A stretch of DNA of 41,939 bases from positions 1-41,939 of the IMG/VR virus record IMGVR_UViG_3300038303_000119. One strand, written 5' to 3'. Below, in pieces: positions 1,326-41,939 of this stretch; within the stretch, counting starts at the first letter, position 1; each line of letters starts with the position of its first letter. The DNA is from a virus. A model generated the notes under the pieces. The model had not been told where the DNA came from. It made no database searches and was given only the letters and a program-made list of their open reading frames with translations. The position numbers were made by a program, and so were the translations under genes.

Positions 1326-1861
1326 TCCGCGTCGTATTGCTCATACTTTTAGTCTCTTCAGCGTTTAGCTCTGGGAACCGTCGATCAAGTAACCTCAGAA
1401 GGTCAGCCACCAACGCCTCAAACGTCACCACAGGCACACTCCCTGTCGGCGTCTTGCCAAGTACCGGCACATGGACCACGGGCTTATCAATCACAACAAC
1501 TGGGACAATCAACGCCACCACGCTAATTGGTGATGGGTCGCAAATCTCAGGGATTACCCTAACGGGCGCATCAATTCCAAACTTCGCACGTAAGACCACG
1601 ACGTATACGGCGCAAGTCAGAGAAAGAATCATAACAGACACAAGCGGGGGCAGCATCAACATCACGCCTCCAGCGACGGGCGTGGGGGTATGGTTCGAGG
1701 TGTTCGCGGCAGAGGGGGCGTCTACTAATCCAGTACGCATCCTCACCAACGGCGACCCTATAAACTCACTTACAAATATAATCAGCATAGACGAAGACCG
1801 CGTAACAGCGCGTTTTGTGTATTTAGACGCATCGACCGGGTGGGCGATAACGTCACCATAA
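1322..1861 (+). CDS. Fibre-like protein with N-terminal signal peptide (179 aa)
   Basis: The protein opens with a short positive N-terminus and a hydrophobic core (MIRVVLLILLVSSAFSSG), which reads as a Sec signal peptide. Ser/Thr/Gly-rich fibre-type sequence follows (NVTTGTLPVGVLPSTGTW and similar), then a C-terminal beta domain from about residue 90 with the pattern TTTYTAQVRERIITDTSGGS...P. A related C-terminal domain ends the next gene (KTSGYTASAGEIVGVVSSGGS...). The ATG overlaps the previous stop. A tail-fibre component with an export signal is unusual, since virion fibres normally assemble in the cytoplasm. It may be an exported surface protein; this is inference. Confidence 0.7.
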   Translation: MIRVVLLILLVSSAFSSGNRRSSNLRRSATNASNVTTGTLPVGVLPSTGTWTTGLSITTTGTINATTLIGDGSQISGITLTGASIPNFARKTTTYTAQVRERIITDTSGGSINITPPATGVGVWFEVFAAEGASTNPVRILTNGDPINSLTNIISIDEDRVTARFVYLDASTGWAITSP

Positions 1862-1882
1862 TCATTCTCTTAGGGGGGAATC

Positions 1883-3175
1883 ATGAAATTTTTTAGACAA
1901 CATAAAAAGGCGCTGTCGTTTCTAACTATCGCGCTTTTCACTTTTCCAGCGTTCGCGCCTTTGTGGGCAGCCGATACCGCCTGGAGTGGATCATATATGC
2001 CTTGGAGTGGGCGCACCATTACTGGTGTAACCTCTTTTACTGCCACCACGTTAGGCGGCACAACCGCAAACATCACCACGCTAAACCTAACCAATGATTT
2101 AAGTGTAGCGAATGGTGGAACTGGATCCAGTACAGCAGGAGACGCCAGGACCGCCCTTGGTGTTGCTATTGGCTCCGACGTGCAAGGGTATGACGCAGAC
2201 CTGGCAGCTATTGGTGGCTTAACTTCCGCCGCTGACAAGCTCCCATATTTTACTGGATCAGGGACCGCAGATGTGGCCGACCTGTCCAGCTTTGCAAGGA
2301 CTTTCATTGACGACGCTAACGAGGCGACCTTGAAGGCTACTCTCAACATGGAGGCCGGAACGGACTTTCAGGCGTATGACGCAACCCTCGACGACTTCGC
2401 GGGGCTCTCTCCTACAGCCGGTAGGTTTATCTATGGTGATGGGTCAAACTTCACCGTTATAACTACCGCCACAGCCAAAACAAACTTGGGTTTAGTTATC
2501 GGGACTGACGTTCAAGCCTATGATGAGGAGCTTGCAGATGTTGCGGGGCTCTCTCCAACTGATAGTAATATCATTGTTGGTAATGGATCCGCTTTCGTTC
2601 TTGAGTCTGGTGCTACTGCTAGAACCTCTCTAGGTTTGACTATTGGTACAGACGTACAGGCATACCATGAGGAGCTTGCTAACTTAGTAGGCTTGACCAT
2701 GACAGACAGCTACTTTGCCGTTGGTGATGGATCCAATATAGTGATGGAAGACGCCGCAACTGCAAGAACGTCTATGGGCCTTGATACAATGGCGACCCAG
2801 GACAACACCAACGTAAACATCGACGGTGGGACCATCGACGGGGTAGCGATTGCCGGGTCAAGTTTTGCGGGGACCGTCAATCAGCAGGCATTGGTTAAGA
2901 CTTCCGGGTATACCGCAAGCGCCGGTGAAATTGTAGGCGTGGTTAGTTCAGGCGGCAGCTTTAGAGTTACTTTCCCAACGAACCCAACAGCAGGAGATTC
3001 GATCCAGATTGTTGACCTGGGACTTGCTCTTGAAACTAATAGCGTTGTACTAGACGCTGGAGAGGCAACCGACCATATGAACGGCACCACTCAAAGTCTC
3101 GACTTAGACTGGAATGGTTTAGATATTCGATGTGTGGCGACCAGCGTAACCGCGTGGTCATGCGCAGGATCATAA
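1883..3175 (+). CDS. Exported fibre-like repeat protein with signal peptide and ADTAWSGSY tag (430 aa)
   Basis: A strong ribosome site (AGGGGGGA) precedes the ATG. Residues 1 to about 29 form a clear Sec signal peptide: basic KKFRQHKK-like region, hydrophobic core, then APLWA before ADTAWSGSYMPWSGR. About four tandem repeats of roughly 48 residues follow (bases about 2155-2785), each with the pattern IGTDVQAYDEELADxAGL...VGDGS...ATARTSLGL. The C-terminal domain (GYTASAGEIVGVV... to the last residues CAGS) resembles that of the gene at 1322. The mature N-terminal tag is shared with the protein at 3199, although the DNA of the two tags has diverged. Probably a cell-surface or adhesion-type fibre; its presence in the virion is unproven. 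Confidence 0.75.
   Translation: MKFFRQHKKALSFLTIALFTFPAFAPLWAADTAWSGSYMPWSGRTITGVTSFTATTLGGTTANITTLNLTNDLSVANGGTGSSTAGDARTALGVAIGSDVQGYDADLAAIGGLTSAADKLPYFTGSGTADVADLSSFARTFIDDANEATLKATLNMEAGTDFQAYDATLDDFAGLSPTAGRFIYGDGSNFTVITTATAKTNLGLVIGTDVQAYDEELADVAGLSPTDSNIIVGNGSAFVLESGATARTSLGLTIGTDVQAYHEELANLVGLTMTDSYFAVGDGSNIVMEDAATARTSMGLDTMATQDNTNVNIDGGTIDGVAIAGSSFAGTVNQQALVKTSGYTASAGEIVGVVSSGGSFRVTFPTNPTAGDSIQIVDLGLALETNSVVLDAGEATDHMNGTTQSLDLDWNGLDIRCVATSVTAWSCAGS
2155..2785 (+). repeat. Four tandem ~144-bp coding repeats
   Basis: Inside the gene at 1883, four units of about 48 residues repeat the pattern (A/V/T)IGTDVQAYxxELAxxxGL(S/T)...GDGSxFV...ATARTSLGL. Unit 1 is degenerate and longer. Units 3 and 4 (about 2500-2640 and 2640-2783) are the closest pair. 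Such arrays usually form an extended beta shaft. Confidence 0.7.
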
Positions 3176-3198
3176 AGTAAAGTAGAAGGGGTGTAGAA

Positions 3199-4572
3199 GT
3201 GTTAGCATCATGTTTCCGCATTGTATCAACAGTCCTGTTGATATTTGGCTTCTTTGTCTACACCCCTACTTTTTACACAGCAGACACCGCGTGGTCCGGC
3301 TCCTACCTTCCCTGGTCAGGGCGCGACCTAACTATCAACTCCCTCTCTCTTTCTACTGACATTTCAAGCGCGGGGTATTTTTTTAATAATTCCGGCACGT
3401 CTTACATCACAGGCGGAGACTTTGGAATAGGCACGGCGTCTCCACAAAACCAAGGGCCGGGTTTCCAACTATCAGGGGCGCAGCCGGTCTTTATTTTCGA
3501 GGAGACGGGGGTTGCTGCGGATAATACCACCTGGGACGTGGGGATTTTCGCAGAGCAGTTGAGGTTTCGCTTAGTCAGCGACGCCTATGACTCAGCCACC
3601 AATTGGCTAACAATAGACCGCACGGGTAACACCGTTGATACAGTCGCTATTCCATCAGGCAACGTAGGTATTGGTACGGCGAGTCCTGGGGTAAAGTTAG
3701 ACGTTGAGAAATCTAGCCACGGCGTACTCGCTCAGTTCTCCGACACGGTCAATATTGTCCAAGTCGAAGGAGATGCCACGGGAGGAAGAGTAGGAACCTC
3801 TAGCAACCATGACCTTCGAATAAAAACGAATGATGTTGACCGTATTTACATTGAGAATGACGGCAACATAGGTATTGGTACGGCGAGTCCACAGCATTCA
3901 CTACACATCAACGCCGCTAACAAGCACATCATGTTCACTGATAGCGGGGGCACAGTAGATACACGCTCTTGGCAAGCCTACACGGACGGCACTACAAACA
4001 CTTTTTTAATCGGCACAGTAGACGACGACGGCACCAATCTTGGAAATAATTTCGCCATGTTGCGGAATGGGAGCGTAGGAATAGGGGACACAACGCCATC
4101 CTACCGTCTGCAGGTTGCGGGCGGCACAGTAGCAGGAGCAGGGGCATACGTAAACACCTCAGATAAGCGGCTTAAAAAAGACTTCCAAACCGTAGCACCA
4201 AAATCAGCTTGTGAAAAAATCGGACAACTTCAGCCCACACTTTTCAACTGGAGAACCAATTTCTATCAGTCCCAGGAACAGTACGCAAACTCAGTGGAAT
4301 ACTATGAAAAAGAGGTTGACGAGCACGGAGTACGAAGGAAGAAAACAGGCATGGTTCATGACACCCAATATAAAGACGTGAACCAACCAAGCGGGGAAAA
4401 AGATATTGGATTCCTTGCCCAAGATGTTCAGCCCGTCTTCCCCCAAGCGGTTTATGGATCAGAACAAAAAGGTTACACGATAGCGTACACAAAATTCATT
4501 CCCCTTATGATGGCTTGCATACAGCACCAACAGGCTCAAATCCTGGAGCTATTGAAAGGGCAGAAGCCATGA
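3199..4572 (+). CDS. Exported fibre-like protein with C-terminal S74 self-cleaving chaperone (457 aa)
   Basis: GTG start at 3199 after AGAAGGGG. Residues 1 to about 27 look like a signal peptide (CFRIVSTVLLIFGFFVYTPTFYT), followed by ADTAWSGSYLPWSGR, the same tag as in the preceding protein. The middle holds several GIGTASP-type fibre motifs, two of them in the conserved DNA repeat. The last about 140 residues are an intramolecular chaperone of the endosialidase/peptidase S74 family. It starts at SDKRLKKD, which holds the expected Ser/Lys dyad, followed by IGFLAQDVQPVFPQAV and Y.I.Y..FIPLMM. In this family the chaperone folds the trimer, then cuts itself off just before the Ser. The stop overlaps the next ATG. 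An exported S74 protein is unusual. Confidence 0.85.
   Translation: MLASCFRIVSTVLLIFGFFVYTPTFYTADTAWSGSYLPWSGRDLTINSLSLSTDISSAGYFFNNSGTSYITGGDFGIGTASPQNQGPGFQLSGAQPVFIFEETGVAADNTTWDVGIFAEQLRFRLVSDAYDSATNWLTIDRTGNTVDTVAIPSGNVGIGTASPGVKLDVEKSSHGVLAQFSDTVNIVQVEGDATGGRVGTSSNHDLRIKTNDVDRIYIENDGNIGIGTASPQHSLHINAANKHIMFTDSGGTVDTRSWQAYTDGTTNTFLIGTVDDDGTNLGNNFAMLRNGSVGIGDTTPSYRLQVAGGTVAGAGAYVNTSDKRLKKDFQTVAPKSACEKIGQLQPTLFNWRTNFYQSQEQYANSVEYYEKEVDEHGVRRKKTGMVHDTQYKDVNQPSGEKDIGFLAQDVQPVFPQAVYGSEQKGYTIAYTKFIPLMMACIQHQQAQILELLKGQKP
3658..3686 (+). repeat. Fibre DNA repeat, copy 3
   Basis: Encodes GNVGIGTASP within the S74 fibre gene. It is identical over about 29 bases to the copy at 103-134, although the two genes lie about 3.5 kb apart. 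Confidence 0.8.
3862..3890 (+). repeat. Fibre DNA repeat, copy 4
   Basis: Same repeat with ATA in place of GTA (GNIGIGTASP). It lies 204 bp downstream of copy 3 in the same gene. Confidence 0.8.
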
Positions 4573-4883
4573 GCGACGACATATCAGCCGAACTACGAAA
4601 CATCGACATTGCTACTATCAACGCCTCGGTTATCCGGCTAGAAGGCAAGGTCAGCACTTTAGCAGACCGCCAGGTGGAGGACCGCAGGGACAACCGGCGC
4701 ACGTTTGAAAAGCTCGACGTATCCTTAGACTCTATCGGCAAGTCTCTTGCAAAACTTGAGCGCTCAGAGGCGTCTATTGTGGCGATGGGCTGGACAACTG
4801 GTAAAGTCTTCGGGGCCATAACCGTCTCATGCGGCCTTGTGGCAACCGCCGTTACTGTCATTCTAAAGGTGGTCGGCGCGTAG
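4569..4883 (+). CDS. Coiled-coil protein with C-terminal membrane segment, holin/spanin-like (104 aa)
   Basis: I choose the ATG at 4569 because it overlaps the S74 gene stop (ATGA), giving translational coupling. Residues about 5-75 are heptad-rich and charged (INASVIRLEGKVSTLADRQ...). The C-terminus is a single hydrophobic segment, VFGAITVSCGLVATAVTVILKVV. This soluble coiled coil plus C-terminal anchor is seen in phage membrane proteins of lysis regions. The family cannot be named. The following genes (3TM-type holin, lipoprotein) support a lysis or envelope role. Confidence 0.6.
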   Translation: MSDDISAELRNIDIATINASVIRLEGKVSTLADRQVEDRRDNRRTFEKLDVSLDSIGKSLAKLERSEASIVAMGWTTGKVFGAITVSCGLVATAVTVILKVVGA

Positions 4884-4920
4884 TGGTCGTAAACAAACCC
4901 TACATGAAAGACTGGGATAA

Positions 4921-5160
4921 GTGAAGGCCTACACGTCAGGGAAGGCAAGAGAGGCCCAAGAACAGGCTAAGAAGGCGCTAAAAGAGCGAACAAATAGAAA
5001 CTCAGTATTACTACAAGATGTCAGATGTGAGAAGTGTGCGTTGTGGCGCTCAAAGACGAATATATCAGGGCGTTGTGTCGCACAAGCTAAACCGCTCTAC
5101 ACATCTGCAAAATGGGGGCAAGACTGCCTCAACTACCAACAATATCAAGTTACAGAATAG
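4921..5160 (+). CDS. Small Cys-rich protein, probable zinc binding (79 aa)
   Basis: Starts at a GTG at 4921 with no convincing ribosome site. The upstream ATG at 4903 gives only a six-codon reading. The N-terminal third is a charged helix (SGKAREAQEQAKKALKERTNRN). The C-terminal half has four cysteines, CEKCALW...GRCVAQ...GQDC, a probable zinc knuckle. Function unknown. It sits in the chain of small genes between the fibre and holin genes. Confidence 0.5.
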   Translation: MKAYTSGKAREAQEQAKKALKERTNRNSVLLQDVRCEKCALWRSKTNISGRCVAQAKPLYTSAKWGQDCLNYQQYQVTE

Positions 5161-5169
5161 GGGTTAACG

Positions 5170-5526
5170 ATGGGATTTTTGCGCAAGCTATGGGAAAAAT
5201 TAAAGCGGCCTTCAAAAGAGGTCATCAAGTCATCAGGGGTTCAACTGGCGACAGAGTTAGTGCGGGTATTTCTGGAGGGAATAGGGGAGATGTTGATAGA
5301 CCGTAACACCCGCAAGAGATTACGACAGCTCAACCAGGAAAAGTCGGGATTAGAGTTGGCCGTCAAAGAGCGGGCAATCGACTACATGACAGAACGTGCG
5401 ATCAACGTAACTTTGATAAAGCTACTTCAAGAACTAGGCAAGAGCGACGAGGAGATTCAGAAGTATATCGCGCTGCACTATGTCGAAGTGAAGGAAGCCG
5501 ACTTAGGAATCCTTGAGGTGCTGTAG
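5170..5526 (+). CDS. Unknown helical protein (118 aa)
   Basis: ATG at 5170 after AGGGG. The product is highly charged and mostly helical (MGFLRKLWEKLKRPSKEVIKSS...). It has an amphipathic N-terminus and a middle segment LVRVFLEGIGEMLID that could lie on a membrane, but no clear transmembrane span. Its TAG stop shares a base with the GTG start of the holin-like gene, so the two are co-translated. Confidence 0.6.
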   Translation: MGFLRKLWEKLKRPSKEVIKSSGVQLATELVRVFLEGIGEMLIDRNTRKRLRQLNQEKSGLELAVKERAIDYMTERAINVTLIKLLQELGKSDEEIQKYIALHYVEVKEADLGILEVL

Positions 5527-6098
5527 TGTTGGACTGGATCCCGGTCATAGGTCCGGCGTTAAAGAAGATCACAAGTCGTATCACTGATAAAGTAATACCC
5601 GATAGAGTCGGCAGGGCCGAGAGAAAGCGCCATGAGCTAGAGTTAGACATTTTAGAGAGGCAAACACGGCTTGCGGAGGCGCAGAGCCCGTCGATCATCA
5701 CGTCAGGATGGCGGCCTGGGTATATGTGGCTCGTGTTGGCTGTGTTGGCTTATAACCACTTCATGTACGAGTTTATCTTGATGTGGCAGAACGGCGCATT
5801 TCATCGGATCATACTACCGCCTGAAGTGTGGCAGTTATTAAGCGTAGTTGCCGGGGTGTATGGTGTTGGCAGATCCGTGGAGAAAATGGGCGCGGTAAGG
5901 CATAAGGCGCAACTCATTCACAGGCACTTAAAAGAGGGCGGTATACAAGTAGACCAATCCGCCGGGAAAACGTCTAGGATCACATCTAATGGATCCATGA
6001 CACGATACTCTTGCGAGTGTGGACATAGTTGGAGCCCAACAACTCCAGGTACTAAAGAGCCTTGCAGTAAATGCGGGGTATGGTTTGAGCCGTTATGA
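5526..6098 (+). CDS. 3TM-type holin with C-terminal zinc ribbon (190 aa)
   Basis: GTG start overlapping the previous stop (TAGTG). The N-terminus LDWIPVIGPALKKI is amphipathic. SGWRPGYMWLVLAVLAYNHF and the later segment VWQLLSVVAGVYGVGRSVEKMG match the pattern of the 3TM holin family first described from gene-transfer-agent clusters. An extra C-terminal domain from about residue 155 has CECGHSW...CSKCGVWF, a C-x-C...C-x2-C zinc ribbon not usual for holins. A TM-anchored holin with a cytoplasmic metal-binding tail is an inference. Its stop overlaps the next ATG. Confidence 0.65.
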   Translation: MLDWIPVIGPALKKITSRITDKVIPDRVGRAERKRHELELDILERQTRLAEAQSPSIITSGWRPGYMWLVLAVLAYNHFMYEFILMWQNGAFHRIILPPEVWQLLSVVAGVYGVGRSVEKMGAVRHKAQLIHRHLKEGGIQVDQSAGKTSRITSNGSMTRYSCECGHSWSPTTPGTKEPCSKCGVWFEPL

Positions 6099-6325
6099 GT
6101 GAGAAGTTTGAGTTAATATCCATCGAGAAAGACCATTATAAAGCTGGTGTTTATTTGTTTCGGATCCATCACTGGACATTGCCGGATGCGCCGGACGTGT
6201 TCATCGAAATGCGGATAGCCCGCTCAATGTTCGAGGGCGGGAACCTATTGATAAAAGATAAGGCGCTTTTGAAGGGCGCTAAAGATGTGTTTTATATATG
6301 TGGGGGTAAGTCATGCGTAAAGTGA
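6095..6325 (+). CDS. Unknown small protein (76 aa)
   Basis: ATG at 6095 overlaps the holin stop (ATGA). The sequence MSEKFELISIEKDHYKAGVYLFRIHHW... is soluble and ends GGKSCVK. No family recognised. The lipoprotein gene starts inside its 3' end, so it belongs to the same translationally coupled chain. Confidence 0.55.
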   Translation: MSEKFELISIEKDHYKAGVYLFRIHHWTLPDAPDVFIEMRIARSMFEGGNLLIKDKALLKGAKDVFYICGGKSCVK

Positions 6326-6453
6326 TTCTTTTGATAGTGTGTTTGTGTATGGTGGTAGCGGCTGGCTGTGGCGGTAAAAAGGGAAACCTGGAACCTCAAG
6401 GCCAGTTGCGGGTGATGGGATTTAGTTCACAAGGGCATTATGTAGTATACTGA
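6313..6453 (+). CDS. Small lipoprotein, o-spanin (Rz1)-like (46 aa)
   Basis: A 46-codon gene overlapping the previous one by 13 bases. The product is MRKVILLIVCLCMVVAAGC followed by GGKKGNLEP... The basic start, hydrophobic core and AAGC lipobox predict lipidation of Cys19 and a mature peptide of about 28 residues. A tiny lipoprotein at the end of a membrane/lysis gene chain resembles an outer-membrane spanin (Rz1-like). No clear i-spanin partner with Rz features is present next to it. This gene also argues for a host with an outer membrane or at least a lipoprotein pathway. Confidence 0.65.
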   Translation: MRKVILLIVCLCMVVAAGCGGKKGNLEPQGQLRVMGFSSQGHYVVY

Positions 6454-9647: not shown

Positions 9648-10484
9648 TTAGAAAATACACTCACACGGTGTTGAATCCTCATCTTTCGTACTAAACAAAA
9701 GCCGTTGCCCGCCCACTTTCAATCTCCGCTTTACGTCTGCCCAAAATCCATTGGCCTCATAATGTTCATGGATCGGGATTCCCAGATTGCACACCTTGTC
9801 GAATTCGGGCGCAAGGTCTTCCAGGTACCCATCTTTGAGGAGGTGATGGCCAACCTCCTCTTCCAACTCCGAGTACCTCCAGAAAGATTCATTATCATGC
9901 AGGTAGACGCACAGCCAATGGAGCTTTCTACCTTTGATGCAGGGTATACAATTGGCGTGTTTGAAGGCTTTATACTGCGCTGGTGGCTTTATTCCGATTT
10001 TCTCTAAGTACGCCTTATCAAGCGGGTTTTTCCAGGTGGCCAGCGGGTAATCTGTTTTGTACCCCTGTGCGGCCATGATAGACGATCTCCGCTGGATACG
10101 GTTTTGCTCGTTAGCGTCGAATCCATAATAGACAATATCGCCTTCTCGGTAATTCTCTTTTAACCACTGCATAAAGGGCGCTGTTTTTAGCCTGTTGGTA
10201 CAAAGTATCTCGGATCCACCGCCATGCCGAATTTCAAAGGCCCTCTCTTTTCTGACAACGGCTTCAGGTGTGAGCCCTGGGTACTTGGTTTCATCACCGT
10301 TCGCGTAGGTAATTTTCATCTTGTGGGCTCCTGCAAATTCGTTCTCAAACCTCTCTACATCCTCTGGCTCTGCGTTTACTTGGTGATTTAGCCAAATAAC
10401 ATCATCAGGACCATGCCACCCCAGTACCATTGCACCAACTAGCGCCGAGGATACCCCCCCTGAGTAGCAGACTATATGCCTCAT
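9648..10484 (-). CDS. PP-loop ATPase, phage PAPS-reductase-like (278 aa)
   Basis: The N-terminus has the PP-loop SGGVSSAL (residues about 8-15), which binds the phosphates of ATP in the adenine-nucleotide alpha-hydrolase superfamily. Further motifs fit the phage PAPS-reductase-like branch: ILCTNRLK near 95, and NCIPCIKGRK near 180 followed by a helix with WRYSELEEE. The classical CysH C-terminal ECGLH is absent; the protein instead ends with CECIF. Such phage proteins are annotated as sulfate-assimilation enzymes, but a role in nucleic-acid or sulfur-transfer modification is equally possible. ATG overlaps the preceding zinc-ribbon stop, which in turn overlaps the C5 methyltransferase, so the three are coupled. 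Confidence 0.75.
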   Translation of the reverse strand: MRHIVCYSGGVSSALVGAMVLGWHGPDDVIWLNHQVNAEPEDVERFENEFAGAHKMKITYANGDETKYPGLTPEAVVRKERAFEIRHGGGSEILCTNRLKTAPFMQWLKENYREGDIVYYGFDANEQNRIQRRSSIMAAQGYKTDYPLATWKNPLDKAYLEKIGIKPPAQYKAFKHANCIPCIKGRKLHWLCVYLHDNESFWRYSELEEEVGHHLLKDGYLEDLAPEFDKVCNLGIPIHEHYEANGFWADVKRRLKVGGQRLLFSTKDEDSTPCECIF

Positions 10485-35879: not shown

Positions 35880-36289
35880 ATGATTACGAGCGCTTTCTAT
35901 CCGTACCTTTCCTGCCTTGCGGGCGTGATTCTAGGGGCGTCGATTGCTGGGGGCTTGTGTGCCTTGTTTATGAGCATTTCCTCAATGTCAGGCTTCCGCA
36001 CTACCTCGGCGGATACGAGTCAACAACAGACCGTGAAGGCGTCAGCACGACTATTAAAGACCACTTTGCGGAGTGGGTTAGCGCACCTTGTCCTGAGTAT
36101 TTGTGCGTTGTTGTTTGGTATATATGTGGCAAGCCGCTTCATGTGGGGGTATTGGTAGACAGCCAAAGGTTTATTCATGCTGAAAAATCAGGAGTTAAAA
36201 TCGAGCGACTTGATAGCCGAAAGTGGGCGCAGAGAAAACGCGCTTATTTGCGCTACTCGCTACTTAACAATATCAGCGGCACCGTTTAA
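35876..36289 (+). CDS. NlpC/P60 tail-tip peptidase (lambda K-like, 137 aa)
   Basis: Catalytic Cys in GVDCWGLVCLVYEHF near residue 24, followed by KPLHVGVLVDSQRFIHAEKSGV with the His pair. In lambda-type phages this domain cleaves peptidoglycan cross-links at the tail tip during entry. There is no JAB domain, so this is a K protein reduced to its NlpC half. Confidence 0.85.
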   Translation: MNDYERFLSVPFLPCGRDSRGVDCWGLVCLVYEHFLNVRLPHYLGGYESTTDREGVSTTIKDHFAEWVSAPCPEYLCVVVWYICGKPLHVGVLVDSQRFIHAEKSGVKIERLDSRKWAQRKRAYLRYSLLNNISGTV

Positions 36290-39200
36290 GCGCGAACACT
36301 TCACGGCGGAATTCTACGAGCATAAAAGCGTTCTTGATTTAGTGATAGACAATATCCCGCAAGATTACTGGGCTTTTGCGCAGGTCTACATCAACGACGC
36401 TAAAGTACCCAATCCCTATTGGGCGAGGGTGTACCCGCTACCTGGCACCATCACGACGATCAATGTGATACCGCAGGGCGGCGACGATAAAAACCCTATA
36501 GCGCTTTTAGTGGGCGCTTTGACATTAGGGGCGGGGGCCGCGTTTGGCGCTCACGTGGCGGCGGGGGGAACTTTTCTAGGATTGAGCGGCACGGCGGCAT
36601 TAGTTGCCGGGAATCTCGCTATAGGGTATGCGGGGTATTTAGCAAACAAGCATTTTGTTAAGCCGCCTAATCAAAGACTCCCAAGCGTATCACAAGACAC
36701 GCCGATACAGTCAATAACGGGGGTGTCAAACAGGGCGAACCCCTTCGGCGCTATACCCGTGATATTTGGCAAAACGAAGATGTACCCACCGTTAGCCGTG
36801 AAGCCGTTCACAGAGATCATCGACAACGAACAATATCTTAGAATGTTGTTTGCTATTGGCTACCAGGACAGCACCCATAACTTATCAATCTCGGACATAA
36901 AGATCGGCAACACGGCGATTACAAACTATTCTGAATTCGAGATGGAATACACCACGCCGTTTGCGTCTCTTACACAAGCGGAGCAAGACAGGTGGTTTCC
37001 AAACATCAGCGAGGAGTCGCTATCATCGGCACTGACCCAGGCGGCGGGCTGGATAACTCAGACCACCACGGCAAGCACAACGGGTATTTTAGTTGATATA
37101 ACATTCCCTGCGCTCGTGGCGTTCTCAACATCAGACGGCACAAAGTCGCCGGTAATAGTTGATTTTGAGATCGAGTACAAGCCAAACGGCGGGGCGACGT
37201 GGTATCCGATGTCAAAGCACACGGGCGACCCACAAATAGTATCAAACAAAATGGGGACGGCTAGAAACGGCCACAGTGCGACGAATGTGGGCGGCATTGT
37301 CTATGTTGTTGGCGGAACTACTGTCAACGGCGGAACAACGTATTTAGACACGATAGAGGCGTTTGATCCATCAACGGAGACATGGACAACTAAGAGCGCC
37401 ACACTGACAACGGCAAGGCGATACCAGGCTGCTGTGGCAGTCGGCACCGACATATTTTTATTCGGGGGAGAAACAGCGGGCGGCACTATCTTAGACAGTG
37501 TTGAGATATACGACACAGTAGGGGACAGTATATCGGCGGGCGCAACGATGCCCGACGCTTTATCAAAGATGGAGGGGATCTACTTTCAAAAGCCCACTAA
37601 GGTTATTTTGGTTTACGGCGGCTGGGATGGCGCTGTGGCAACCAGTGAGCTTTATGAATACGGGATTGTAGCCGACACATGGGGGACCGGGACGCTAAAT
37701 AAGGTCACGGGGCCAAATATAGCAACTCTTAAAAAGAGGTTTGGGTATGCGCTTATACCACCAACCATCTCCGGTATTGTTCAGAGGGTATGGTTTATGA
37801 TGGCTGGTGGAGAAACGGCGGCGGGCACAGAAACGGACGACATCTTATATGTCGTGGCCACATTTACAAGCGGCGCTCCTCTGTATCATGTGGTCGGTGA
37901 CTTTTACACCCTCCCGGAACCGCGCACAATGCACTCTGTCGCTTTTGATAATACAGACCCGAGCTTTGCCTATATGGGCGGGGGCCTGTCTGGGGGGGTA
38001 GCTTCTGACGCATTTTACAAAATAAGGAAACTAGTACCCTTTGATACCATCGCCCTAGACACATTATCAGCGCCACAGGCTGAGATTCGCCTGGCATCCG
38101 CAGACGGCAAAGTGTACCCGATAGGCGGATTAGTTAGCGGCCTATCTGTCACGGATATAGAGCGCTTTAGCTCCACTAAAAAGACCATCACGGCGGCATC
38201 TACTCAAGTAGTAAGGCGCACGTTTTCAATGCACGGGCTAACGTCTGATACATACGATGTAAGAATCAAGAGAACGACAGCAGACAATAGCGCGACAGAA
38301 GTATCTGACGACGCCACATGGACAGCATTGCGCTCGGTACGCGCAGGGTCAGCAGTAACTAATACAAACATTAGAACCCTGGCGCTAAGAATCAAGGCAT
38401 CAGACCAGCTAAACGGTGTTATCGACCAATTAAACTGTATCGTTGAGGCCGAGGTGCCGACACACGACGGGGTAGAGTGGAGCCAGAATGTTTCGAGGAA
38501 TCCAGCATGGGCGTATGCGCAGGTGTTAAGAGGCGGGGCGGCTAAAAACAGCATGGCAGATGCGCGGCTTAACATCACCCAGATTAAATCGTGGGCTGAT
38601 TTCTGCGACACCAACGGGTATAAATTCGATTTTGTCGTTGAGGGCGCGATGAGGCAAGCCGACTTGTTGGACCTCATAGCATCTACAGGCAGAGCGTCAC
38701 GAGGTATGGTAGACGACTTGCACAGTGTTATACAAGACGATACCCAGGCCACGCCGGTACAAATGTTTGGGCCTCGGAACATATTAGCCGGGTCGTTCAA
38801 GGGCGGCATGACGTATCGGCTAGTACCGCACGGGCTAAAGATCAGATTCCGCAACGAGGACGAGAACTACTTAGAGGAGATCCGCACGGTATACCGCGAT
38901 GGATTCAACGCCGACGGATCCGGGGGCAACGCAACAGCAACAGTTTTTGAGGATATGGAGTTTCCGGGCGTCGTAAGCTCTGACAATGTCTTCAGGCTTG
39001 CGAGATATTTTCTCGCTGTCGGCGTATTAAGGCCGGAAGTCTGGACTTTCAAATGCTCGTTAGATGCCTTGTCAGCCAACAGGGGGGACAGGGTAAAGCT
39101 ACAACACGACGCATCAAGTATCGGGTTAGGTAGTGCGAGGATTTCAGCAGTAGGTACAAGCGGGGGGCAGATTGTCAGCATTACGCTAGACAGGGCGGTG

Positions 39201-41162
39201 CAGACAAGTTCAGGCACTAACTATACTATCTCGGTTAGAAAATCAGGGGGCGGTATTGTTTCGCGTGTCGTCACTGTAGCGGCTACCCAGGAAAATACCT
39301 TCTTTACGATCACAACTCCAGCAGATAGTACAGGCGACTATGACGCAGGTGATTTTGCGATGATCGGCACAGAGGACGCCGAAGCCGTTGACGCCGTTAT
39401 CTCGTCGATAAGGTATACAGGGGACTTTGTGGCGGAAGTGGGCTGTGTGCCCTATGATACAGGCGTGTATACAGCCGATACTGAAGCAATACCGGCGTAT
39501 ACCACCACGATCACACTAACACCTGAGCAGGTGCGGAAAATTCCAGACGACCCGACGATAGACTCTATAGTTTCAGATGAGTTTGCATTAGAGCGTACAG
39601 GCGACGGCTCTTTAGACTCAGGGGCGATACTTTACTTGAACCCCTTTGTAACTCAGGGCGTAGCGCCTTCGCATATAGGCGCAAGACACCGCAGGACAGA
39701 CAGCACCGATGGGCCTTATACTCACGCGCCACCCGTAAGCGCAGAGCAAAACCAAATCCGCATAGGCGCTTTAGAAGATGGCGTCGAGTACACCCTGCAG
39801 GTTCGTTACATTAGTAAAGTGGGTGAGACGTCAGAGTGGGTATCAACTACTCACACGGTACAGGGGAAGCAAAACCCACCGCCAGACGTAGCCAACCTGA
39901 CGGCGACGGTGCGGGACCGCGATTTGCTGTTGTCCTGGGATAAAGTCACAGTACCGGACTTATGGAAGTATGAAATCCGTGAGGGGGCATCATGGGCGGC
40001 GGGTACTGTAATAGATGTGATAGACACCACCACTCAGATTATAGACGCGCTTACAGCGGCGTCGTATACATACAGGGTCAAGGCGATAGATACGACTGGG
40101 AACTATTCGACTACAGAGGATACGGTTTCTATTACTATCGCGGCGTTATCGGCACCTGGCAACCTTGGGGCGCAGTCAGCACAGGGGCGGGTAAGCCTAT
40201 CATGGGAAGTGCCGACGTTCTCAGGTACGCGGGTTGAGCATGGCGTCAGGTATTACAACATCTACAGAGGGGCGTCTGGATCCGATTTTGCAGACAGTAC
40301 GCGAATCGGCACCATTGGGGCCACAGAATACGATTACACCGAAAAGACAGGCGGCACGTACAAGTATTTCGTCACGGCATATGACTTTGGTGGTAATGAA
40401 TCCACGGCGGCGACTTATGAGATTATTGTAGACGACGCTTTTGAATATGTTTTATTGGATACGGTAAGAGTTACACCTTCGCTATCCGGCACGGCGTTTG
40501 ATGAGGATTGGCACAGCCCTATAAGGTATTATCTTGGGGCTGACTCGACATCGTGGGTTGATGTTCACACGGCAAACGGTTGGACTTCCGTACAGGATCA
40601 AATTGATTCCGGAAATACGTATTTCATCGAGCCTCTTGTAAGTAACGACACGGCGGCGGGTAGGTTTACAATGGCGACGGTTTCCTGGGCCGTGGGGCTT
40701 AGGAATATAAAGGCTAAACTTTTATTCAACCAAACAGACGTAGACACAGGCGCGCTAGATATAAGGGTGCGGTTTGCCACTGATAACGGTACAGTGGTGC
40801 AAAACCAGCCCGATCATGAGTTCTTTGCTGACCAAGTGGATTCGTTTAGTTTCTACGTTGAGTTTTACGGCGATGCAAACTCCCTGTCGTATTTCGACAC
40901 CATCCAGTATCAATACTGGGCGATGAAGCGCACGTTTTCCGGCTCTTTGAGTGTTACTACGGCTCCAACAGGGACGGCACTAGACATAGACGCCAGCTTA
41001 ACCGCATGGCCTGACATCACCGCTAACGTCGTGGATGGGGCCACAGGCGACACTGTTAAGATAGTCCAGAACATCGCATACGACGAGTTTACACTTTACA
41101 CCTATGACTCTGGCGGCTCACAAGTGGCGCGTACAGTGAATTGGCAAGCGAGAGGGTACTAA
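36177..41162 (+). CDS. TipJ-like tail tip / host-specificity protein with inserted Kelch propeller (1661 aa)
   Basis: The J-type N-terminus is visible at residues about 40-215: a small-domain start (FYEHKSVLDLVIDNIP), a GA-rich hydrophobic stretch (IALLVGALTLGAGAAFG), and NPFGAIPVIFGKTKMYPPLAVKPFTEI. Residues about 356-668 (bases about 37243-38180) are Kelch repeats. The J fold then resumes with VVRRTFSMHGLTSDTYDVRIKR and the later DFCDTNGYKFDFVVEGAMRQADLLDLIASTGRAS. Three FN3-like domains follow (about 1120-1230, 1232-1322, 1324-1419) and a C-terminal domain of about 240 residues. The ATG at 36177 (AAAGG upstream) overlaps the NlpC gene by 113 bases. No alternative ATG exists before the J-domain start. 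Confidence 0.85.
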   Translation: MLKNQELKSSDLIAESGRRENALICATRYLTISAAPFKREHFTAEFYEHKSVLDLVIDNIPQDYWAFAQVYINDAKVPNPYWARVYPLPGTITTINVIPQGGDDKNPIALLVGALTLGAGAAFGAHVAAGGTFLGLSGTAALVAGNLAIGYAGYLANKHFVKPPNQRLPSVSQDTPIQSITGVSNRANPFGAIPVIFGKTKMYPPLAVKPFTEIIDNEQYLRMLFAIGYQDSTHNLSISDIKIGNTAITNYSEFEMEYTTPFASLTQAEQDRWFPNISEESLSSALTQAAGWITQTTTASTTGILVDITFPALVAFSTSDGTKSPVIVDFEIEYKPNGGATWYPMSKHTGDPQIVSNKMGTARNGHSATNVGGIVYVVGGTTVNGGTTYLDTIEAFDPSTETWTTKSATLTTARRYQAAVAVGTDIFLFGGETAGGTILDSVEIYDTVGDSISAGATMPDALSKMEGIYFQKPTKVILVYGGWDGAVATSELYEYGIVADTWGTGTLNKVTGPNIATLKKRFGYALIPPTISGIVQRVWFMMAGGETAAGTETDDILYVVATFTSGAPLYHVVGDFYTLPEPRTMHSVAFDNTDPSFAYMGGGLSGGVASDAFYKIRKLVPFDTIALDTLSAPQAEIRLASADGKVYPIGGLVSGLSVTDIERFSSTKKTITAASTQVVRRTFSMHGLTSDTYDVRIKRTTADNSATEVSDDATWTALRSVRAGSAVTNTNIRTLALRIKASDQLNGVIDQLNCIVEAEVPTHDGVEWSQNVSRNPAWAYAQVLRGGAAKNSMADARLNITQIKSWADFCDTNGYKFDFVVEGAMRQADLLDLIASTGRASRGMVDDLHSVIQDDTQATPVQMFGPRNILAGSFKGGMTYRLVPHGLKIRFRNEDENYLEEIRTVYRDGFNADGSGGNATATVFEDMEFPGVVSSDNVFRLARYFLAVGVLRPEVWTFKCSLDALSANRGDRVKLQHDASSIGLGSARISAVGTSGGQIVSITLDRAVQTSSGTNYTISVRKSGGGIVSRVVTVAATQENTFFTITTPADSTGDYDAGDFAMIGTEDAEAVDAVISSIRYTGDFVAEVGCVPYDTGVYTADTEAIPAYTTTITLTPEQVRKIPDDPTIDSIVSDEFALERTGDGSLDSGAILYLNPFVTQGVAPSHIGARHRRTDSTDGPYTHAPPVSAEQNQIRIGALEDGVEYTLQVRYISKVGETSEWVSTTHTVQGKQNPPPDVANLTATVRDRDLLLSWDKVTVPDLWKYEIREGASWAAGTVIDVIDTTTQIIDALTAASYTYRVKAIDTTGNYSTTEDTVSITIAALSAPGNLGAQSAQGRVSLSWEVPTFSGTRVEHGVRYYNIYRGASGSDFADSTRIGTIGATEYDYTEKTGGTYKYFVTAYDFGGNESTAATYEIIVDDAFEYVLLDTVRVTPSLSGTAFDEDWHSPIRYYLGADSTSWVDVHTANGWTSVQDQIDSGNTYFIEPLVSNDTAAGRFTMATVSWAVGLRNIKAKLLFNQTDVDTGALDIRVRFATDNGTVVQNQPDHEFFADQVDSFSFYVEFYGDANSLSYFDTIQYQYWAMKRTFSGSLSVTTAPTGTALDIDASLTAWPDITANVVDGATGDTVKIVQNIAYDEFTLYTYDSGGSQVARTVNWQARGY

Positions 41163-41163
41163 A

Positions 41164-41939
41164 ATGGCAACAATAGACTTCGACAAACCAGACGCAAGTA
41201 CAAGCGCGGCGGACGTGCTAGAGGACGTAAGGGACAGCATATTAGGGCTTTCTGATTGGCTTGACCCTGCGAATAACTCGCTGTCAAACGCGCCGACGTA
41301 TGCAAAAACTCTAAGCGCTGTCTCTATCGCGTCTTTCGGCACGATGAACACCTTAGAGAACCAGGGGAATGTGTATTTCCAGGCCAACTCAGGCGGGAAG
41401 GGTTTACACATCTACGGCAACGCGTCCTCAGACGGGGGGGAGCTGCTGTTAAGTGCTCAACGCGACATCTCAGCGGATACCAATAGGTCCGCGTTTTGTG
41501 TTGATGCTTTTGACGGCTCAATCCGTGAGATTCTCGGCAATCAAGATTTTATTATCAAGAGCGCGGACTACGCCACGAATACGAATAAGGCCATCAGGCT
41601 AGAGGGCAACACCCTGGACATATACACGGGGGCGGATAAGACCGCGACGGCTTCGGCTGTTCATGTGGATAGCTCCGGCAACGTGGGTATTGGTACGTCG
41701 AGTCCTTCTTTTGGGAAGTTGCAGGTAGAAGCTGCAGAGGGTGTAAATAATTTCTTATCCCTGAGATCAACGGGTACTGGTAACAGGATGCTGTCTACTT
41801 GGGTAGATGACACTAACTCTACTATCAATCTGGACTCCCGGTATACTTCTGGAGGGGCATACGATTTCAGGTTTAGAGCGGGGGCTACAGAGTTGATGCG
41901 TATCGACGCTTCCGGCAACGTAGGTATTGGTACGACGAG
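41164..41939 (+). CDS. Tail fibre protein, N-terminal part (continues at base 1)
   Basis: ATG at 41164, one base after the TipJ stop, with GAGG nine bases upstream. It is open to the window end and in frame with base 1, giving a 483-residue protein in the circle. The N-terminal segment (MATIDFDKPDASTSAADVLEDVRDSILGLSDWLDPA) likely docks to the tail. GNVGIGTSSP occurs at 41674-41705, and the last bases encode another copy. The portion shown is 215 codons before the overlap region. Confidence 0.8.
   Translation, partial: MATIDFDKPDASTSAADVLEDVRDSILGLSDWLDPANNSLSNAPTYAKTLSAVSIASFGTMNTLENQGNVYFQANSGGKGLHIYGNASSDGGELLLSAQRDISADTNRSAFCVDAFDGSIREILGNQDFIIKSADYATNTNKAIRLEGNTLDIYTGADKTATASAVHVDSSGNVGIGTSSPSFGKLQVEAAEGVNNFLSLRSTGTGNRMLSTWVDDTNSTINLDSRYTSGGAYDFRFRAGATELMRIDASGNVGIGTT
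41674..41705 (+). repeat. Fibre DNA repeat, copy 5
   Basis: Encodes GNVGIGTSSP with GTG and TCG variants. Further copies lie at 103, 334, 3658 and 3862. Confidence 0.75.
41809..41939. repeat. Right copy of the terminal redundancy
   Basis: Matches bases 1-131 with one difference (A at 41935 for G at 127). It ends inside the fibre DNA repeat. Confidence 0.85.

Follow-up and report, generated by a model that had tools for sequence, protein, structure and literature searches.

The virus record IMGVR_UViG_3300038303_000119 of IMG/VR (DNA of 41,939 nt, positions 1-41,939, referred to here as the window) includes a cassette of three consecutive genes, named A, B and C, that code for fibre-like proteins with predicted Sec leaders. 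In B and C the leader is followed immediately by almost the same 15-residue tag. The genes A-B-C are found in the same order on the IMG/VR contigs L003 and L004, which are near-identical in this region, and on L005. We consider that A-B-C may be a mobile cassette coding for exported mosaic trimers resembling the MAT fibres of Bdellovibrio, in which the tag would be bound to a common partner and the tips would occupy receptors, a reading to which we give a nearly even chance. The features of the window on which this reading is built are as follows.

1322 to 1861, + strand: gene A, the first of the cassette; 179 aa, leader-bearing, with a C-terminal beta domain of the tailspike/fibre type
1883 to 3175, + strand: gene B; 430 aa, consisting of leader, tag, tail-fibre repeats (phrog_24210) and a C-terminal beta domain
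1883 to 1969, + strand: leader of B, 29 aa, predicted Sec signal peptide
1970 to 2014, + strand: tag of B, ADTAWSGSYMPWSGR
3199 to 4572, + strand: gene C; 457 aa, consisting of leader, tag, a shaft of the GNVGIGTASP type and an S74 chaperone
3199 to 3279, + strand: leader of C, 27 aa, predicted Sec signal peptide
3280 to 3324, + strand: tag of C, ADTAWSGSYLPWSGR
4159 to 4572, + strand: region of C with the S74 self-cleaving chaperone, beginning at SDKRLK
4569 to 4883, + strand: small protein with a C-terminal hydrophobic stretch, homologue of the L005 gene 3' of the cassette
5170 to 5526, + strand: 118-aa protein, homologue of the L003 gene 3' of the cassette
41164 to 41808, + strand: leaderless fibre gene behind gpJ, part 1, continuing at 1-807 across the record ends
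1 to 807, + strand: leaderless fibre gene behind gpJ, part 2, an internal contrast to A, B and C

The ORF list contains B and C where the first-pass annotation had placed them, and gene A, upstream of B, is a further leader-bearing gene that this annotation had not included. The N-termini of B and C consist of a charged segment and a hydrophobic leader, with the tag immediately after. Leaders were called by a composition rule (a net positive start, a 10-residue uncharged h-region with a mean hydropathy of at least 2, and a small-residue cut motif) together with conservation of leader character across orthologues, and the calls are rule-based predictions. A, B and C were the sole passers of the strict rule among 54 non-overlapping ORFs of the window, and the same three genes were the sole passers on the 26-kb L003 contig. 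Alignments show that the leader character of A, B and C is kept in the orthologues of the three lineages, namely the window, L003/L004 and L005. In the last of these the mechanical choice of ORFs hid A and placed the start of B upstream of the likely ATG at 3042, and both leaders are visible in the alignments. The Sec-type signal peptides previously assigned to the adjacent genes B and C thus stand both by the rule and by the orthologues, and export of A, B and C is, as judged from sequence, strongly supported.

It is extremely improbable that these are ordinary virion fibres with misread starts or with N-terminal trimerisation helices. A misread start is conceivable in that C begins at a GTG codon and ORF starts were picked mechanically; on the other hand, purine-rich ribosome-binding-like sequences are found upstream of most cassette starts, and a misreading would have to account for the persistence of leader character in the cassette genes of three lineages. 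Trimerisation helices, which the first-pass annotation had named as an outcome that would refute its reading, are not supported either: the h-regions are 10 residues without charge rather than heptads, all orthologues have charged, hydrophobic and small-residue N-termini, and the virion-fibre relatives read are mostly leaderless.

The leaders could also be uncleaved N-terminal membrane anchors, in which case the fibres would remain attached to the inner membrane on its periplasmic side, or the hydrophobic terminus would serve inside the virion. The predicted cut region of window C, FYT-ADT, falls short of an ideal AXA site and would agree with such an anchor, cleavage being a prediction. However, the tag lies directly at the expected cut site in 6/6 proteins (B and C of the three lineages) and the XXS-ADT region predicted in the relatives is an acceptable site, so that we regard anchors of this kind as very unlikely. 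No lipobox cysteine was found at the predicted cleavage sites of window A, B and C. The Tat route was considered as well, as RR precedes the h-region in the B proteins of L003 and L005, but window B has KK at this place and the C proteins have no RR, and Sec is therefore preferred.

The tag, with the consensus ADTAWSGSY[M/L]PWSGR, is identical in B and C at 14 of 15 residues. As the first-pass annotation had claimed, it is located right after both signal peptides, and the window includes it at these two sites only (1970-2014 and 3280-3324), as established in six frames and by a profile search. B and C are otherwise essentially unrelated, since outside the leader and tag clear similarity reaches a few residues further at most. 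The DNA coding for the two tags differs at 15/45 bases, as compared to 1/15 residues. In 200,000 simulations in which an equal number of random substitutions was introduced in the tag, none changed fewer than 4 residues, and the best common 15-mer in shuffled B/C pairs had 6-8 matching residues versus the 14 observed. Taken together, these results indicate that the tag peptide is strongly constrained, in agreement with the earlier proposal that selection keeps the peptide while its DNA has diverged.

The tags directly after the leaders are ADTSFSGSYLPWSGR and ADTSFKGSYLPWASR in L003/L004, and ADTSFKDTYMPWSGR and ADNSFKDNYLPWASR in L005. The recurrence of the tag right after signal peptides elsewhere, which had been suggested as a check, was thus observed in two other IMG/VR phage lineages. 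Residues A, D, Y, P, W and R are invariant in the six tags. The B-C matches within genomes amount to 36 for the true pairing, compared to 27-33 for the other five pairings, and this somewhat closer resemblance of the tags of one genome fits a common partner, being, with three genomes, at best a 1-in-6 result. The B proteins of the two other lineages show 70% and 48% identity to window B by blastp. The body of C in the relatives is wholly different from that of window C, the clearly common part being leader plus tag, and a search with C alone found no relatives.

The tag is known from these three lineages after scanning viral_contigs, genome_contigs, phages and plasmids. Strict patterns, looser patterns and N-terminal alignment found nothing in viral_contigs beyond the records of the relatives, the tag pattern had 0 matches in genome_contigs, and tblastn with leader plus tag had 0 matches in phages and plasmids. 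As these scans found it nowhere else, the tag can be considered rare in the sequences searched.

The last 131 bases of the window (41809-41939) repeat the first 131 (1-131) with one mismatch, in a record classed as without end repeats. This terminal repeat makes the record circular, and the ORF that starts at 41164 and ends at 807 is accordingly a single fibre gene of 483 residues. The window includes HK97-type terminase, portal and head genes, a tape measure gene and gpJ, and the gene directly 3' of gpJ is this leaderless fibre gene. The gpJ-like tail protein (36177-41162, +) has Kelch repeats in its N-terminal third, and a phosphoadenosine phosphosulfate reductase-like gene (phrog_424; 9648-10484, −) is a possible auxiliary metabolic gene. 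No tRNA was found in the window, and PADLOC and NCBIfam gave no match.

The terminase of L003 had no blastp match to that of the window; in tblastn its relatives belong to other phages, with identities under 40% throughout the best matches. The cassette in L003 and L005 is followed by a large portal-like ORF and by ORFs with podovirus-like sizes and order, which may be P22-type. By blastp, the window and L003/L005 have in common A, B and the N-terminal part of C, the two neighbouring genes (4569-4883 and 5170-5526) and a short methyltransferase segment, and no virion gene common to the HK97-type window and the podovirus-like contigs was found outside the cassette. Since the cassette is common to phages with different terminases, it appears to have moved between unrelated phage types, presumably in the same or related hosts.

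Leader-bearing fibre-like proteins without the tag were found in several other phages. One, in the IMG/VR contig L008, adjoins a gpJ-like gene. Bradyrhizobium phage ppBdUSDA122-1 (L055) has two in a row (1686-3134 and 3170-5767, +), flanked by a large tail gene and an amidase gene. Four prophage-like loci from bacterial genome assemblies (L039, L040, L045 and L051) also include such proteins, and in L045, from an Afipia genome assembly (2705-3808, +), the leader directly precedes a domain homologous to the N-termini of other phages' tailspikes. Manatee Spring phage ctLpZ231 (L059) codes for a leader-bearing protein without the tag for which there was no family match and whose fibre nature is less certain. 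Our search of the literature, limited to open-access papers, found no description of leader-bearing phage tail fibres.

The L045 arrangement keeps alive the alternative that the cassette proteins are exported and are still virion parts, which would reach their folded state in the periplasm and, at lysis, attach to finished virions by means of the tag. The two leader-bearing fibre genes right behind the large tail gene of ppBdUSDA122-1 also favour it. Such late mounting is nevertheless unlikely, as the same tag is found in two kinds of phages, an HK97-type siphovirus and podovirus-like ones, with no virion gene detectably in common outside the cassette, and as the window already includes a leaderless fibre behind gpJ. 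For the former reason it is improbable that the tag serves for docking to the virion, and A or a host envelope component would be a better candidate for its partner.

Apart from their N-termini, the cassette proteins are built of ordinary fibre modules, and in B and C the leader and tag occupy the place of the N-terminal region of ordinary fibre relatives. The repeats of B are tail-fibre repeats of phrog_24210 (E 2.5e-29), with relatives in Rhizobium, Sulfitobacter and Puniceispirillum phages whose fibres are leaderless where read. The C-terminal beta domain of B shows weak similarity to the end of A (hhalign E 8.5e-4, probability 24%; blastp E 2e-5), and the beta domain of A matches the tailspike chains 7rfv, 7rfo and 7rej. 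The only two cysteines of B (417 and 427) are C-terminal, inside the beta domain, and are kept in both orthologues; as a sequence feature, the pair fits folding in an oxidising compartment. The S74 self-cleaving chaperone that the first-pass annotation had recognised in one of the two proteins was confirmed in C (Pfam E 2.9e-13), with the SDxxxK motif kept as SDKRLK at residue 321, and in the C proteins of L003 and L005 the place of S74 is taken by a different C-terminal domain, which has two cysteines. The AlphaFold models obtained for B and C were of low confidence (mean pLDDT 33). Exact repeats of 23-29 bases around GGTATTGGTACGGCGAGTCC (3657-3685 and 3868-3890) are common to C and to the leaderless fibre gene 41164-807, which suggests possible recombination between exported and virion fibre genes. 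Thus the cassette proteins have the repeats, S74 chaperone and C-terminal beta domains of S74 and phrog_24210-type tail fibres, and differ from them by having leader plus tag instead of the relatives' N-terminal region.

Among known proteins, the exported MAT (mosaic adhesive trimer) fibres of Bdellovibrio bacteriovorus come closest. In these a leader is followed directly by a conserved, beta-rich domain some 130 residues long, and further by a phage-like shaft that is trimeric and by tips that can be exchanged (PMC10769870). Thirteen MAT proteins have S74 and 8 do not, members have been seen on the predator surface, and the TNF-like tips are disulphide-bearing (PMC10769870). B and C likewise have a leader and an invariant N-terminal element and, as far as sequence shows, a shaft like that of phage fibres and tips that appear exchangeable, S74 being present in some and absent in others. 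Shaft and tip likeness was observed as a match of the C shaft to MAT chains (Bd2133, 8ojn), the S74 motif and the swap of the C tip, the models being poor. In contrast to MAT proteins, the cassette is phage-encoded and known here from genes alone, and its invariant element is a 15-residue tag. As the signal peptide is present by the rule and the domain of about 130 residues is absent, the cassette can be considered MAT-like but, on present evidence, not a MAT member.

A resemblance to trimeric autotransporter adhesins of the UspA1/YadA type was also found, as C of L003 includes a repeat matching the UspA1 adhesin head; no C-terminal membrane anchor of the trimeric autotransporter type was detected by Pfam. 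The UspA1 and MAT similarities would agree with surface adhesins that alter the infected or lysogenic host, as lambda Lom does or as MAT fibres do on their bacteria. The lambda lom gene, located between the tail spike and tail fibre genes, is similarly placed and codes for a signal-peptide-bearing product (PMC12309495), which is an outer-membrane barrel and not a fibre. However, no integrase was found among the genes scanned and the cassette genes lie directly before the holin gene, which together make late lytic expression likelier. Lysogenic conversion is accordingly given less weight, and host-altering adhesins are distinctly unlikely. Behind the holin-like gene, a 46-residue putative lipoprotein (MRKVILLIVCLCMVVAAGCGG...; 6313-6453, +) could be an outer-membrane spanin subunit.

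As possible functions, the first-pass annotation had suggested receptor blocking, surface remodelling and, for the tag, an anchor role. Returning to exported trimers with a partner for the tag, we infer the function of the tag and the blocking of receptors as follows. A, B and C would be made late in infection and would cross via Sec unfolded, to be cut just before ADT. The chains would trimerise once outside the cytoplasm, with the S74 chaperone assisting in C and a disulphide perhaps doing so in B and in the C proteins of the relatives. At the base of each fibre the three tag copies would next be bound by a single partner, common to the fibres, which would be either a component of the envelope or a cassette product, A being the best candidate among the latter, and the receptor-binding tips would thereby be kept at the envelope or beyond it. 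We found no known route by which the fibres could cross the outer membrane, and their display outside before lysis is a proposal. The likeliest benefit would be that sister phages are not lost to the infected cell or to the fragments set free at lysis, as receptors or glycans there would already be occupied. We prefer receptor occupation to adhesion because no integrase was seen, the holin gene adjoins the cassette, and there is a precedent in T5 Llp, an exported phage lipoprotein that keeps phages from adsorbing to the infected cell as well as to the fragments left after lysis (PMC9586334). The likeness to Llp and to the Cor superinfection-exclusion lipoproteins lies in the proposed outcome only (PMC9586334), as Llp is a small lipoprotein and A, B and C are fibre-like and have no lipobox. 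We put forward tentatively, with the chances leaning against it, the wider claim that phages of different virion types share horizontally moving exported mosaic adhesin fibres, the mature N-terminal tag of which would be an address read by a host envelope component or by A, and that a phage would in this way present a set of its receptor-binding tips on the cell it infects or on the resulting debris.

Phage fibres are regarded as components of the virion that assemble in the cytoplasm, and genes of this kind are annotated as 'tail fiber'. A conserved cassette with Sec leaders and a common tag, found across unrelated phages, points to fibre-like phage proteins that would work outside the cytoplasm, and it may connect the MAT adhesins of predatory bacteria with phages. 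Whether leader-bearing phage fibres are decoys or blockers, late-mounted virion parts or adhesins becomes a testable question. Predictions of receptor-binding proteins from metagenomes may include exported fibres that are absent from the virion.
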